48,452 nt of DNA from Chloroflexota bacterium (GTDB lineage Bacteria > Chloroflexota > Dormibacteria > CF-121): the NCBI GenBank assembly GCA_005880875.1, contig VBJI01000083.1, positions 1 to 48,452 of the forward strand, read 5' to 3'. This document shows positions 16,406 to 26,380 of the stretch, one piece after another. The position numbers and the translations under genes were made by a program. The notes beneath the pieces are model-generated. The model was not told the DNA's origin and did no database searches. It was given only the letters and a program-made list of their open reading frames with translations. Every line of letters begins with the position of its first letter. The stretch's first letter is position 1.

Positions 16406-17060
16406 GATTCGAGAAGTCGAAGGTGATGGTGGCCGACTGCGATGCGTCGAAGAGGTTTCCGGCGAGCCGCGCCCGCCAGAGATCGTTTGTCGAGCTGTCG
16501 ATCCAGTAAGTCGCCTGGTAAGCGCCCTGCTCGCGGATCAGGGTGAGAAGTTGGTGGACACGGGCACCACTCAGCTGGCCGCTGACCCGGTAGGTGTCGT
16601 TCCCGTTGATTTTTTCTGAGTTGCCGCGGGAGACCGACGTCGTATCAGTCATGGCCGCGAACAGCCCGGAGTGCGGATCGAACAGCGTGCGAGCGTCGAA
16701 GAATTGGGCGACCTGGTCCGCGGTGAGCTGTTGCCAGCCTCCAGTGAACGACTTCAAATAGATGTTGTTTGAGGCGAAGATCACCTCGACTTCCAGCAGG
16801 ATGCCGCCCTCCTTCAAGTTCACCCGGGCCTGGAGGTCCGGTGGATGGGCATCGCCCTGGGCGCTCTGCACCGGCTCGCCGGCGCCGGTGAAGCCGCTGA
16901 TCTGCATTACGAAATGAAACCCCTTGAGGTCGAGCATGCGCTGGCTGGATTGTTTCAGCAACGTGGCGGCGTCAGGCGGGGGCGCCCCGCACGCACTCAG
17001 ACCGACGACGATGAGCACGCCGGCCGTCAGGGCTCGGTGCTGCGAGGCGCCGGCGTGCAT
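16365..17060 (-). CDS. LppX/LprAFG-like lipoprotein
   Basis: Lipobox-like VGLSACG; LKGFHFVMQISG… fold pattern. Confidence 0.72.
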   Translation of the reverse strand: MHAGASQHRALTAGVLIVVGLSACGAPPPDAATLLKQSSQRMLDLKGFHFVMQISGFTGAGEPVQSAQGDAHPPDLQARVNLKEGGILLEVEVIFASNNIYLKSFTGGWQQLTADQVAQFFDARTLFDPHSGLFAAMTDTTSVSRGNSEKINGNDTYRVSGQLSGARVHQLLTLIREQGAYQATYWIDSSTNDLWRARLAGNLFDASQSATITFDFSNHDHPVSVTPPPLG

Positions 17061-18952
17061 CAGGCCCTCAGGATACGGTCATCTCCGACCCGTCGCGTGA
17101 CTTTTTGCGCATCGAGCCATTCGAGCAAGGGAAGAACGTAGCGACGGCTCGATCCGAGCAGATCCCGTGCCGCCGCTACCGTCAGGGTTCGATGCTCGAT
17201 GAGGTGGCTTCGCAGGCGGCCAACCGCGTCATCGTAGGCCGAGCGGGCGAACAGGGTGTCGTCGTTGACCCGTACGACGCGTTCCTCGGCGACCAGGTAC
17301 TCGAGCAGCGCTGGGCTCAGCGGATGCCGGTGCAGCAGGTCGGACAGGGGCGGCGGATTGAAGGGCTGGCGCTCGAGCTCGACGATAAAAGCGGCCACCG
17401 CGGCCTCCTGCTCCGGGCTCAGCCCCTGGCGGTGCCCGGCCGCCGCCACCTCGCCACCACGCTCGGTCACCATTCCGGCGTCTATCAGTGCCACCAGGGC
17501 ACCACCGTAAAGCTCGGCGGGGATGCCACTGCGGCTGCGCAGCTCCTCGCGCGGCATGCCGCGACGAAGTGGGTGAGCCAGGTGGTAGGCACGCAGCGCG
17601 CTGTCGACTCGCGTCACCAGTCCCTCCCAGCGGTCACGGGTCAGCCAGGTGTTCGCCAGCCGGCGGACGGCGCCTCGCTCGGCGAGTGCCTGCATCACCT
17701 GATCGACCCTCGCGACGGGGAGAGCCAGGCGGTCCGCGAGCCCGGCGTCCGGTAAACCCCATGGATGCTTGGCGAGCTCCAGGACGGCTGCGGTCGCCGG
17801 GTCGGCATGCTCCCGCAAAGCGAGGTCTTTGAGCACGGCCAGGTCGCGACGACGGTGCCGACGCGGTGCGCGGTCGAGGATGACGCCACCCGCAACGGTC
17901 GCCGGGGGCGACGGCACCCGAAGGATGAAGCGATCGCCATCCATGGCCACCACCGGAGCGGCCGCGAACAGCTGCGCCAGAGCGTTCTGGCCGGGCTGGA
18001 TCTCCTCTGCTTCGAGCAGACTGAGCTCCACCATGACCTCCGCGGTCTCGTGGTACATCATCAGTTGCTGCCGGTGGTGCAGCGATTGTCCGGCGTCGGG
18101 CAACACGACGAGACGGGCGTCCAGCCGCCGGCTGACAGCCAGCGTCCCCGGCACGGTCAGGACATGACCCCGGTGGACCTCCGCGTGCGTAAGCCCGCTG
18201 AGGTTGACCGCGGTACGGCTGCCCGGGCGCGCCTCCTCGACGGCATGATTGTGCTGCTGCAGCCCGCGGATCCGCACCCGCCGCCCGGCGGGGAGCACCG
18301 CGACCTCGGCACCCAGGCGCAGCGCCCCTCCGACCAGCGTCCCGGTGACCACGGTGCCAAACCCGGACATGGCGAACGACCGGTCGACAGGGAGGCGCGG
18401 CCGACCGATGTCGGGCCGGAGCGTTGCACTGGCCAATTCGGCGTCGAGCGCAGCTCGAAGCTCGTCGAGCCCTTGTCCGGTGGAGCTCGACACCGAGACG
18501 ATCGGCGCCCGCTCCAAGGACGTGCCGCGGAGTAGTCCGCTGACCTCCTGCCGGACAAGCGCGAGCCAATCGTCCCCGACGAGGTCGACCTTGGTCAGCA
18601 CCGCCAGCCCGTGATCGATTTCGAGGAGGTCCAGGATGGCGAGGTGCTCGCGGGTTTGCGGCATCGGTCCCTCATCCGCGGCGATCACCAGCAGGACCGC
18701 ATCCATGCCGTGCACGCCGGCGAGCATGTTTTTGAGAAATCGCTGGTGGCCGGGAACATCAACGATGCCGACTCGTCGACCACTGGCCAGCTGCAAGTAG
18801 GCAAAGCCAAGGTCGATCGTCATCCCGCGGCGCTTCTCCTCCTCGAGCCGGTCCGGATCGATCTGGGTGAGCGCCTTCACCAGGGTCGACTTCCCGTGAT
18901 CGATGTGTCCCGCGGTGCCCACCACGAAGGAGCCACCGGCAAGGTCGGTCAC
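17060..18952 (-). CDS. selB: Selenocysteine-specific translation elongation factor
   Basis: [25 protein letters not shown], winged-helix C-terminal repeats; overlaps selA. Confidence 0.95.
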
Positions 18953-20307
18953 GAGAGCGCCCTGGCGATGGCGTCGAGCACGGGGTCGTCTTCACCGGAA
19001 AGCACCGTGCGGGGGTCCAGAAGAACGCGCTCCTGCTCGATCCGGCCGATCACGGGAGGATCATGCTCGCGCAGTCGCCGAAGCAGCTCCGCCGCGGTCC
19101 CGCGCCGAGGCGTGATCACGACCAGGCTGGTGGCCAGCCGCTCGCCCGGCAACGATCCACCGCCGACCGCCGACTCGCCGGGCGTAATGTCGACCGCCAG
19201 GCCAAGCTCGGACAGGCGTTTCTGCCAGGCCCGTGCCCGGCTGGCCACGGAGTCGCTCGAGGCGCCGATCATTTCCCAGACCGGCAATTCGCCAAAGGAC
19301 TGGGTGAGGTAGAGGTCGAGGGTAGCCGTGAGGGCCGCGATCGTCAGCTTGTCGACCCGCACCGCACGCGCCAGTGGGTGCTTCATCAGCCGGTCGACGA
19401 GCTCGGTCCGACCGAGCAAGAGACCAGCTTGCGGGCCGCCCAGCATCTTGTCTGCGCTGGCCGCCACCAGGTCGACGCCTGACTGCAGGCTGTCCTGAAT
19501 GCGCGGCTCCGCCGCAAGCCCAAAGCCTGTCGTCTCGATCAATGAGCCGCTTCCCAGGTCATGCAGCAGAAGGACGCCGTGCCGCCGGGCGAGGGCGGCC
19601 AGCGGTTTGAGCTCGACGCTCTCCGTGAAGCCGACGACCTGAAAGTTGCTGGCGTGCACTTTCATGATGGCCGCCGTCTTCGGGGTGATCGCGGAAGCGT
19701 AATCCTCGGCGCGGGTCCGGTTGGTGGTTCCCACCTCGACCATCCGGGCGCCTGACAGCCGCATGATCTCAGGCATGCGAAAGCCGCCACCAATCTCGAC
19801 CAGCTCACCGCGAGCGACGATGACCTCTTTGCCGCGAGCGAGCGCGGTCAACATCAGCAGCACCGCGGCAGCACAATTGTTGACCACAGCGGCCGCCTCG
19901 GCGCCGGTCAGGTAGCGGAGCGGCTCGGCCACCAGGTCATGCCGCTTGCCGCGGCGCCCGGTCTGCGGATCGAACTCGAGGGTCGAATAGCGCCCTGCGA
20001 TGCGAGCCGTCGCCTCGCCCGCCGCCGCCGCCATGGGCGCCCGCCCAAGGTTGGTATGCAGGATCACGCCGGTCGCGTTGATCACCGGCCGAAGACGCGG
20101 CAGGCGCAGTCCCTGGACGGTCGCTTCGACCCGGGCCCAGCGAGCCTGCGGCGCGTCGGTCACCGCCCGCCGGCGTTCATCCTCCAGAACGCGCTGCACG
20201 GCAAAGCGAACCAGCGGCCGCCCGTGAGCGGCGATCAATGTGGTTGCCGGCTCCTCTTCGAGGAGCTGGTGCACGCTGGGCAGCGCGCGGAGGGCATCCA
20301 TGCTCAA
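18949..20307 (-). CDS. selA: L-seryl-tRNA(Sec) selenium transferase
   Basis: RPVINATGVILHTNLGRAPM, SADKMLGGPQAGLLLG. Confidence 0.96.
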   Translation of the reverse strand: MSMDALRALPSVHQLLEEEPATTLIAAHGRPLVRFAVQRVLEDERRRAVTDAPQARWARVEATVQGLRLPRLRPVINATGVILHTNLGRAPMAAAAGEATARIAGRYSTLEFDPQTGRRGKRHDLVAEPLRYLTGAEAAAVVNNCAAAVLLMLTALARGKEVIVARGELVEIGGGFRMPEIMRLSGARMVEVGTTNRTRAEDYASAITPKTAAIMKVHASNFQVVGFTESVELKPLAALARRHGVLLLHDLGSGSLIETTGFGLAAEPRIQDSLQSGVDLVAASADKMLGGPQAGLLLGRTELVDRLMKHPLARAVRVDKLTIAALTATLDLYLTQSFGELPVWEMIGASSDSVASRARAWQKRLSELGLAVDITPGESAVGGGSLPGERLATSLVVITPRRGTAAELLRRLREHDPPVIGRIEQERVLLDPRTVLSGEDDPVLDAIARALS

Positions 20308-21038: not shown

Positions 21039-21455
21039 TTAAGCGGCGGCGGCAGCGATCTCGGTGCGGACGCCGACTGAAACGACCGAGGCGTTCGCCT
21101 CTTCGCCATGGACGGCGCTCTTGCCCCGAAGGATGCCGCCCTCGTCGATGATCAGCGAACCGACCACGATATCGCCGAACACCTTGCCGGTCGCCAGGAT
21201 TTCCAGGCGACCCGAGGTGCTGACGTTGCCCTGGATCGAGCCGCCGACCACGACATTGCGGCCGCTGACATTGCCCTTGACCCGACCATGCTCGCCGACC
21301 GACAGGTCGCCTTCAGTGGTCAGATCGCCATTCATTTCGCCGTCGAAGCGGATGTTCGAGGTCGACTGCAGCCGGCCCTCGAGCTTGATCTGGTTGCTCA
21401 ACACCGTCTCGGCGACGATGGGAGCGGCTTCACGCGGGGATCTCTTGTCGAACAC
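21039..21455 (-). CDS. Bactofilin-family polymer-forming protein
   Basis: Repeating beta-helix turns (KLEGRLQSTSNIRFDGEMNGDLTTEGDLSVGEHGRVKGNVSGRNVVVGGSIQGNV). Confidence 0.9.
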   Translation of the reverse strand: MFDKRSPREAAPIVAETVLSNQIKLEGRLQSTSNIRFDGEMNGDLTTEGDLSVGEHGRVKGNVSGRNVVVGGSIQGNVSTSGRLEILATGKVFGDIVVGSLIIDEGGILRGKSAVHGEEANASVVSVGVRTEIAAAAA

Positions 21456-21532: not shown

Positions 21533-21880
21533 TCACGCCTGGAGCAGGCCGCGGAGCGCGATCGAGCCCACGATCAGCAGGACGAACATCAGGGCCGCCG
21601 TGATCGCGATCCGTCGCAGATCGGATCGGAAGTAAGGGACCCGCTCGAGGGGAATTGCCGCGTCCTGCGACGGCAGGGGACCGGCGGGCTGACGCCGGGG
21701 CAACGGCCGTTGTACCGGCAGACTGCTCGCGGCAGCCTGCGCCGGTTGCCCGAGCTGAGCGGCCTGGCCCGGCTGGGCAGGGGCGACGGGAGGCAGGCCG
21801 GCAGGCCGCGCGGCGCGGCTCGCTCCGGAGGATCCGCGCTGGGGCTTTTTGAGCTGCGAGCGTTTGTGCTTTCGGGCCAT
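21533..21880 (-). CDS. Small single-TM protein with basic, Pro/Ala/Gln-rich N-terminus
   Basis: MARKHKRSQLKK… with C-terminal helix IAITAALMFVLLIVGSIALRG. Confidence 0.6.
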   Translation of the reverse strand: MARKHKRSQLKKPQRGSSGASRAARPAGLPPVAPAQPGQAAQLGQPAQAAASSLPVQRPLPRRQPAGPLPSQDAAIPLERVPYFRSDLRRIAITAALMFVLLIVGSIALRGLLQA

Positions 21881-21925
21881 CCCTATCTTTGCGGATGGCA
21901 GTTTAGCGCGAACGTGGATAAGCGC

Positions 21926-21954
21926 TTGACACATCCAATGGGCTGTGGTACAAA
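21926..21954 (+). promoter_or_regulatory. Sigma70-like promoter for a +strand RNA
   Basis: TTGACA (21926-21931), 17 bp, TACAAA (21949-21954). Confidence 0.6.
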
Positions 21955-21960
21955 CGGCCT

Positions 21961-22071
21961 CGGGTACAACATATAGCGTACCCGTAGCCGCGAGCCAACA
22001 AGGGCCAGATCCTGCAGCCGTCCTGCCATCGTCGCTGCAATGCCCCTCCTCATCTGGTCCTTGTTGTTTTT
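21961..22071 (+). ncRNA. Candidate novel sRNA, about 111 nt
   Basis: Promoter 7 bp upstream; 5' hairpin CGGGTAC-N10-GTACCCG (21961-21984); terminator-like hairpin; no +strand ORF explains it. Confidence 0.55.
21996..22071 (+). terminator. Long terminator-like hairpin plus U5
   Basis: CAACAAGGGCCAGAT (21996-22010) pairs over 15 bp (one G.U) with ATCTGGTCCTTGTTG (22052-22066), then TTTTT; inner TGCAGC/GCTGCA stem. Confidence 0.65.
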
Positions 22072-22907
22072 CCGGCGACTTCGGACCACGGCTGCTTTGT
22101 CCATGCGGCCGACTCGTATTTGGAGCGGCGCAGGTCCCCCGCCGCGGCGAGCTCATCCGGTCTGAGCCGCCCCGCCGTCACGCTGACGCCAAACTGTCGG
22201 CCGAAGGCCGCGGCGAGCGAACCGGCGAGGCGGGCCGGGTCCAGATCATCCACCTCGGCGAGCCCGGCCACGGCGGTCTCGAGTCGCCTTCGCCCGACCT
22301 CCCCCCGAGCCTCCGGGTTGAGCCGCAGGCATCCCAGAATGGTGTCGATCTGCGGCTCGATGACGATGCTCCCGTGCTGCAGCAGGGCGCCGGCGCGGCG
22401 TACCTGGGCGCTGCCAACCAGCTTCCGGCCGCCCAAAAGGATCTCATGGGCCGAGGGACGGTCGAAACAGATCGGACCGCGATCGTCGACGGCCGGCCCC
22501 GCGGCGACCGGCGCCAGGGTCGCGGGGACGCCGAGAAACACGAGGCCGGCCTGCAACGCCAGACTCAATCGGTGGTAAGAGGGGACGATGCCAGCCTCGT
22601 GGCCCAGCACTGATGCCGGCAGCGCCACACTGTAGGTCAACTCGCGATCGTGAAGGATAGCCCGTCCTCCGGTCGGGCGGCGAACGATGTCAACGCCGCG
22701 AGCCCGGCAACCCTCGACATCCACGATCTCGAAGGATTGAAAATAGCCGAGGGATAAGCAGGCCGGCGTCCAACCATAACAGCGCAGGGTTGGCTGCGAA
22801 CGGCCCGCCGCAACCGCATCGAGCAATGCCTCATCGACTGCCATGTTCCAAGCGCCGCTCGCCGGCTCATCGACGAGTAGGCGCCAGGTCTCAGTCGTCT
22901 TCGTCAC
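22050..22907 (-). CDS. Lipoate-protein ligase A family (LplA/BPL_LplA_LipB)
   Basis: NMAVDEALLDAV, RRPTGGRAILHDRELTYSVALP. Confidence 0.9.
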   Translation of the reverse strand: MTKTTETWRLLVDEPASGAWNMAVDEALLDAVAAGRSQPTLRCYGWTPACLSLGYFQSFEIVDVEGCRARGVDIVRRPTGGRAILHDRELTYSVALPASVLGHEAGIVPSYHRLSLALQAGLVFLGVPATLAPVAAGPAVDDRGPICFDRPSAHEILLGGRKLVGSAQVRRAGALLQHGSIVIEPQIDTILGCLRLNPEARGEVGRRRLETAVAGLAEVDDLDPARLAGSLAAAFGRQFGVSVTAGRLRPDELAAAGDLRRSKYESAAWTKQPWSEVAGKTTRTR

Positions 22908-24932: not shown

Positions 24933-25508
24933 TTAGTGGTGTTGGCTGGTAGGGACCACCTCCCTTGCATCGAGCAGCGGGAGTGGATCGACCGGCACGC
25001 CTGCGATGCGCACCTCGAAATGGAGGTGCGGTCCGGTACTGTTGCCGGTCGATCCCATGAGGGCGATCGCCTGTCCCGCGGCAACGACGTCGCCCGACTG
25101 CACGAGCGGCCAGTCGAGGTGCCCGTACAGCGTGCTGAGCTGGGGATCGCGCATGACCAGCAGGTACAGACCGTAGCCGCCACGCTCTCGGTGAAGACTG
25201 ACGACGCCGCCCGTCGCTGCGTAGACGGGCGTGCGGAGTGGCGCGGCCAGGTCGATGCCGCAGTGGAAATGGTGACTGGGGCATGCCGAGGACCACGGCT
25301 CGATCTCCAGCGAGGTGCAGCCGAAGGCCTGGGTCAAGGTGGCACCCCGCACCGGGGTGGTCAGCGAGCCGGGTCGCGACTGCTGCGCCTGCACCACCAT
25401 CCCGGCGAGCAGGAGGGGCACCGCCGCGAAGGCGGCACCGATCGCGAGCAACGGGCGTCGCCACGACCAGGCGAGCAGCGCGAGTCGACCTCCGGTGAAT
25501 AGCGTCAT
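24933..25508 (-). CDS. M23-family metallopeptidase, membrane anchored
   Basis: FHCGIDLAAPLRTPVYAATGGVV, GSTGNSTGPHLHFEVR, N-terminal hydrophobic helix. Confidence 0.92.
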   Translation of the reverse strand: MTLFTGGRLALLAWSWRRPLLAIGAAFAAVPLLLAGMVVQAQQSRPGSLTTPVRGATLTQAFGCTSLEIEPWSSACPSHHFHCGIDLAAPLRTPVYAATGGVVSLHRERGGYGLYLLVMRDPQLSTLYGHLDWPLVQSGDVVAAGQAIALMGSTGNSTGPHLHFEVRIAGVPVDPLPLLDAREVVPTSQHH

Positions 25509-26380
25509 GCGTGCGACGCTCGGGTGGTGCCCATCGCGCTCTTGATTCCCTTCTTGACCATGCTCTCGGCGAAGTGCTCGGTCTTGCCCTCAAGGTGGGC
25601 GGAGGCGTTCATCAGGCCCGGGACTTTGATCAGGAGATAGAGCACGGCCACGCCGTAAAGCGCCTCAACCGGTCGCCCGCCAACCTGGTCGGCGAACAGA
25701 CTGGCGAAGCGCAACACCAGCACCTGGCCGAACTGCATGAAAACGGTCAGCAGAAAGAGACGCAGCCAGGACTGCGCATAGCGTTTGGTTTCCGGAAGGA
25801 TCATGCAGATGGCGGCCAGTGGGACGACCCCCAGCAGCACCGCGAGCAGGGCGAAACGCACGACGTAGGTCAGGGCAACGATCACGAGCATCACGGCGAT
25901 CGCGAGACGGATGACGATCTGAAAGAGCGGCTGGCCGAACGCACTGTTCATGGCGAACGTCCAGGGGAAGCGCGGCGAGCCACCCGGGAACGGCTGGGTC
26001 CACACGGTGTGGACCATGGCGTTGTTGAGGTCGATCGCCATCTGGCCGAACATCAGGCCGAAGTGCGCCATCACGATGGCTGCCATGGCCCGGGGCAGCA
26101 TGACTTTCAACGTGTAGTGCGGTCGAAACGAGGTGTGCTCCCACTGGCTCCGAAAGAATGCCCAGGTGAACACCAGGACCAGCAACAGGTCCGCCATGGC
26201 CAGCGTGAGATGAAACATCGCTTGCAGGGCGGGCTCCTCGGTCAACGGCCGGGGCGTCAGCGTCGACAGGTCGTGCGTACTCAGCAGATAGGTCTCGACC
26301 GTTCCCGCCACCGAGTCGCGGACGTCGTTGATCAGGTTGTTGAAGAACCCGGTGACCAGGCCGGAGAAGATCTCTAACAC
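25505..26380 (-). CDS. Polytopic membrane protein resembling VirB6/TrbL-type conjugation proteins
   Basis: Six or more hydrophobic segments, gene context; by-eye similarity only. Confidence 0.5.
   Translation of the reverse strand: MLEIFSGLVTGFFNNLINDVRDSVAGTVETYLLSTHDLSTLTPRPLTEEPALQAMFHLTLAMADLLLVLVFTWAFFRSQWEHTSFRPHYTLKVMLPRAMAAIVMAHFGLMFGQMAIDLNNAMVHTVWTQPFPGGSPRFPWTFAMNSAFGQPLFQIVIRLAIAVMLVIVALTYVVRFALLAVLLGVVPLAAICMILPETKRYAQSWLRLFLLTVFMQFGQVLVLRFASLFADQVGGRPVEALYGVAVLYLLIKVPGLMNASAHLEGKTEHFAESMVKKGIKSAMGTTRASHA

Follow-up and report, generated by a model that had tools for sequence, protein, structure and literature searches.

The best reading of this locus, judged from its sequence and that of its relatives, is that it holds a real, unannotated small RNA (sRNA) gene of about 110 nt on the + strand (~21960 to ~22071), located between lplA and a bactofilin operon in a 48,452-nt stretch of Chloroflexota DNA that was analyzed as a whole (the window). 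We assign a probability of roughly 0.6 to its product being a free-standing, Hfq-independent sRNA with a C-rich seed that would block the Shine-Dalgarno sequences of its targets. An unannotated + strand sRNA had already been proposed in a preliminary description of this DNA, and the proposal gained support from the conservation of promoter and RNA body in 18/18 genomes of the family, from the divergence of the flanks and from G.U changes that fit the + strand only. Conservation in related genomes, named there as a point on which the proposal could fall, proved to be extreme.

Promoter and start-site region

The gene is preceded by a sigma-70-type promoter (21926 to 21954, + strand) composed of the -35 hexamer TTGACA (21926-21931), a 17-nt spacer and the -10 hexamer TACAAA (21949-21954). 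The latter is of the extended type, with TGG directly ahead of it and the TG at 21946-21947, one base upstream of the hexamer. Across the 18 family genomes, 8/8 columns of the -35 block and 10/11 of the extended -10 were invariant, compared to 4/12 in the spacer and 0/6 in the start-site region; the promoter blocks CGCTTGACA and TGTGGTACAA were found without change, and the spacer varied more. Conserved hexamers, a free spacer, a free +1 region and a conserved body together form the pattern of a promoter followed by a transcribed RNA. Every one of the 18 genomes had the sRNA locus as its sole match to CGCTTGACA-N14-18-TGGTAYAA, with 0 matches in the backward-read control, and TTGACA-N16-18-TACAAA was found once in the 48-kb window and in 0/100 shuffles. 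A generic scanner applied to the window listed neither the promoter nor the terminator of the sRNA, the former because it demands a T at position 6 of the -10 and the latter because the loop exceeds its length rule. Directly upstream of the -35 lies a moderately conserved stretch, GTTTAGCGCGAACGTGGATAAGCGC (21901 to 21925, no strand assigned), with 10/23 invariant columns (21901-21923) and a mean of 0.92, versus 0.65 just upstream. This candidate may be a UP element, a regulator site or part of the divergent promoter of the membrane-protein/bactofilin genes.

Predicted fold and strand

The RNA is predicted to start at about 21960-21961, and the consensus structure of the family homologues comprises three helices. 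The 5' hairpin has 7 bp (CGGGTAC at 21961-21967 with GTACCCG at 21978-21984, + strand) and the loop AACATATAGC. It is followed by a conserved linker with GCCGCGAGC (21985 to 21995, + strand), unpaired in the consensus structure, where 9/11 columns (21986-21996) were invariant and the unpaired probability was 0.40-0.84. The main hairpin (21996 to 22066, + strand) has a 15-bp stem formed by CAACAAGGGCCAGAT (21996-22010) and ATCTGGTCCTTGTTG (22052-22066), with one G.U, and contains a conserved inner stem, GCAGC/GCTGC (22014-22018/22034-22038), and an apical loop that holds GTCCTGCCAT. The promoter, the 7-bp hairpin, the 15-bp stem with its G.U and the terminal TTTTT are all at the positions given in the preliminary description. 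The fold energy of the 121-nt stretch was -49.7 kcal/mol, compared to -32.5 ± 3.0 in shuffles (z -5.75). Outside the U tail, identity by element (arms, linker, stems, loops and C-rich stretch) was 0.91-1.00, and in the flanks it was 0.65 upstream of the promoter region and 0.69 in the lplA coding sequence just beyond.

The main hairpin shows a two-sided change from A-U to G-C in one genome (G016, loci L016/L020), and the outer pair of the 5' hairpin goes from C-G to U-A in L018 when realigned by eye. One-sided changes were U-A to U-G (five genomes, 5' hairpin), G-C to G-U (four) and G-U to G-C (one). Standard pairs filled 546/551 cells on the + strand versus 499/551 on the - strand. Since each G.U form would read as an A.C mismatch on the - strand, the structure has been kept as a + strand RNA, and the functional transcript is probably that of the + strand. 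Covariation, an earlier suggestion for checking the stems, was present as one clear two-sided change besides several G.U changes and is limited, because the stems hardly vary and most pairs never change; such never-varying pairs were counted as evidence neither way for the structure.

Probable terminator and overlap with lplA

The U tail of the probable intrinsic terminator is TTTTT at 22067 to 22071 (+ strand) and is variable among relatives, with an identity of 0.80 in the 18 family genomes. T5 comes straight after the stem in 7/18 species, and the others have TGTTT, AGTTT, TATTT, CTTTT, TTTGT or TATTG. The 3' hairpin itself is present in all family members, and in L018, from the most distant genus, the U-run is absent. 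The claim of a terminator U-run thus holds for this genome and not for all species, and termination may therefore be imperfect or the 3' ends processed. The lplA-like lipoate-protein ligase gene (22050 to 22907, - strand; Pfam PF21948, E 1.6e-29) has its stop codon at 22050-22052, and the final 22 nt of the gene run antisense to the RNA's 3' end, as had been stated. The stop and last codons of lplA (22050-22071) sit opposite the terminator stem, so that a single sequence serves both.

Distribution and synteny

The RNA appears to be restricted to one uncultured soil family of Chloroflexota. BLASTN with 21920-22080 retrieved the element from 18/18 family genomes (four genera, three of them represented by one genome each) and from 0/43 other genomes of the class. 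Of the 110 class genomes scanned with the covariance model, 18 gave a match, every one a family member, and none of the other 92 did; a 400-genome sample of the phylum gave 9 matches, again all within the family; two matches outside it with E ~0.09 were discarded as noise. No homologue was found in viral contigs in the covariance-model search for distant homologues. Family members carry the RNA as a single copy. A second copy in G007 (L021) was rejected as a chance match inside a protein-coding stretch, and the double matches in G005 and G016 look like one locus assembled separately, with L019 and L020 near contig ends. The same RNA, together with close relatives of lplA, was found in the soil MAGs Chloroflexi bacterium CF_13, CF_18, CF_45 and others.

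Synteny was constant, with lplA flanking the RNA in 18/18 genomes and a small membrane-protein gene on the other side, also in 18/18. In the window, the latter encodes 115 aa (21533 to 21880, - strand) and is divergent from the RNA. The bactofilin gene (here at 21039-21455, - strand; PF04519, E 1.1e-24) comes next wherever the contig extends that far. The lplA of G016 has a shorter C-terminus.

The C-rich stretch and a proposed mode of action

The putative seed GCCCCTCCTC (22042 to 22051, + strand) is a C-rich sequence in the 3' internal loop of the main hairpin, invariant in 10/10 columns in the 18 genomes. The loop is one-sided (2 versus 13 nt), and the C-rich GCCCCUCCUC was predicted to be unpaired in every homologue, with mean probabilities of 0.94-0.97. 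Its complementary sequence, GAGGAGGGGC, is a long string of Shine-Dalgarno type (GGAGG-type ribosome-binding sites), and an unpaired C-rich stretch of this complementarity is one of the features expected of trans-acting sRNAs with C-rich regions. The preliminary description had seen here an anti-Shine-Dalgarno-like stretch typical of such RNAs; the stretch proved to be invariant, every predicted fold leaves it open, and action in trans is what we infer from it.

The sRNA would be transcribed from its own promoter, starting at ~21960, and ended by the 3' hairpin at ~22071, with its two hairpins protecting it. The single-stranded GCCCCUCCUC would block the translation of target mRNAs by pairing with their Shine-Dalgarno region, perhaps joined in this by GUCCUGCCAU in the apical loop and by the linker with GCCGCGAG. 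Pairing would proceed without Hfq, as in the C-rich-region sRNAs FsrA, RoxS and CsfG of Bacillus; Hfq was not detectable in the 18 family genomes, and control genomes gave matches. FsrA and RoxS of B. subtilis bind mRNAs through their C-rich regions (PMC8216469). The near-invariance of the RNA, stems included, goes beyond the demands of a short seed and might point to a protein partner.

Relation to known RNAs

Comparison with Rfam, another of the checks suggested earlier, matched no family, consistent with an uncatalogued RNA: Rfam 15 gave 0 matches at or above the gathering threshold in the window, and relaxing the threshold added nothing but a chance miRNA match (E 4.5). No report of this RNA was found in literature searches. 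The RNA resembles the C-rich-region sRNAs of Bacillota (FsrA, RoxS/RsaE and CsfG, as well as the staphylococcal IsrR) in exposing a CCCCUCC-type stretch for Shine-Dalgarno pairing, but it comes from another phylum, has no sequence or Rfam relationship with them, and has one C-rich stretch rather than several, located where the terminator hairpin opens into a one-sided internal loop. The 6C RNA of Actinobacteria is a hairpin RNA with C-rich unpaired residues, in which two hairpins have C-rich loops; the C-rich run of the Chloroflexota RNA instead occupies an internal loop, and no Rfam family matches this RNA.

Small regulatory RNAs have hardly been described in Chloroflexota, and by title we found no sRNA paper on the phylum. 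A near-invariant, family-wide RNA gene that is absent from Rfam offers an entry point: its defined sequence can be searched for in metatranscriptomes from soil, and its candidate seed can be tested in bacteria in which Hfq is not detectable. Anti-Shine-Dalgarno regulation by C-rich RNAs would reach another phylum if targets were confirmed.

Alternative explanations

We consider it unlikely, if worth weighing, that the gene encodes a structural or protein-binding housekeeping RNA (a regulator of polymerase or ribosome, for example a lineage-specific functional substitute of 6S RNA) and not a base-pairing sRNA. The whole molecule is nearly invariant, stems and loops alike, and is present as a single copy in all family members, as would suit such a role; 6S RNA is likewise a single-copy, highly conserved small RNA. 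In addition, the 6S model (RF00013) gave no match in 18/18 family genomes, while controls matched. Five genomes from two other families of the class contained 6S-like RNAs (L125-L129) with scores of 39.8-46.3 bits, under the Rfam cut-off of 46.4, which in the inspected loci (two from one family and one from the other) lie beside aspS, downstream of it. The place after aspS in the sRNA-bearing family was empty of 6S matches, and since even the 6S RNAs of these relatives fall just under the cut-off, that of the family may be too diverged to detect. However, the RNA has no match to the 6S model, is shorter (117-122 nt versus 187 model positions), lies beside lplA and not after aspS, and has a one-sided loop unlike the roughly symmetric, open-complex-like central bubble of 6S. 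Its identity as 6S was rejected on score, length and bubble shape, and functional substitution for 6S is a possible, unsupported idea.

A cis-acting element seems rather improbable. The region would in that case serve the - strand membrane-protein/bactofilin operon as its leader or attenuator, or else control lplA as a cis-antisense RNA through the 22-nt overlap. Constant synteny with lplA and the operon would fit, as would the overlap of the 3' end of the RNA with lplA and the possibility that - strand operon transcripts cross the region. Against this, pairs are lost on the - strand through the helix changes (499/551 cells paired, versus 546/551 on the + strand), and the promoter blocks read as a + strand promoter. 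Conservation, moreover, is highest in the C-rich stretch and the loops rather than in the coding part of the overlap, and it falls sharply inside lplA.

Far less probable still is a short conserved peptide gene or a dual-function RNA, for example one translated from the ATG at 22040 (MPLLIWSLLFF...), which stands ahead of the conserved 3' arm and opens a 41-aa frame in the window. This ATG, the sole one close to the C-rich stretch, has no preceding Shine-Dalgarno, is ACG in L003 and is absent in L018, and after ~9 codons its frame runs out of the conserved block into variable sequence. The length of the RNA ranges from 117 to 122 nt, and frames shift between relatives; these differences of 1-5 nt and the lost ATGs therefore exclude a conserved peptide. 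A chance pattern with no gene, for which the only argument is that hairpins are simple to come by in GC-rich DNA, has a negligible probability in view of the fold z of -5.75, the 0/100 shuffles with the promoter pattern and, above all, the conservation block in 18 genomes of four genera, which refutes it.

Candidate targets

For the base-pairing sRNA, targets were sought by pattern searches for Shine-Dalgarno-like strings before ATG. The pattern GAGGAGGGG-N2-9-ATG occurred 2 to 10 times per genome, and AGGAGGGG-N3-9-ATG was found at 8 places in G000, the genome to which the window belongs, and 19 in G003. The only orthologous gene with AGGAGGGG before its ATG common to these two genomes is a coxM-like flavoprotein subunit gene, whose product matched PF00941 and PF03450 and which adjoins CoxG-like and CoxS-like genes (names from sequence inspection). 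Of the 13 full-length coxM-like orthologues, 11 had AGGAGGGG before the start codon and two had AGGAGGG, with differing bases on either side. Because AGGAGG is selected by the ribosome in any case and the genomes come from related species, this leader is just a lead; the coxM-like gene is a possible target and the sole lead obtained. In G000, the 8 occurrences of AGGAGGGG before ATG were near chance, as the backward control gave 6, and nothing therefore points to a large regulon built on the exact AGGAGGGG. That a lineage-specific, Hfq-independent anti-Shine-Dalgarno RNA controls a CO-dehydrogenase-type molybdenum hydroxylase (coxM-like) and a few other genes, possibly also filling the global role of a missing 6S RNA, seems a long shot.

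Other genes in the window

The selB and selA genes are adjacent (17060-20307, - strand), and their position side by side makes selenocysteine synthesis in this organism probable; a search of the window for tRNA genes gave none. A gene for a TrbL/VirB6-like conjugal-transfer membrane protein (25505-26380, - strand) adjoins M23 peptidase and SSB genes, a neighborhood that suggests a segment of a type IV secretion system or an integrated element near housekeeping genes.
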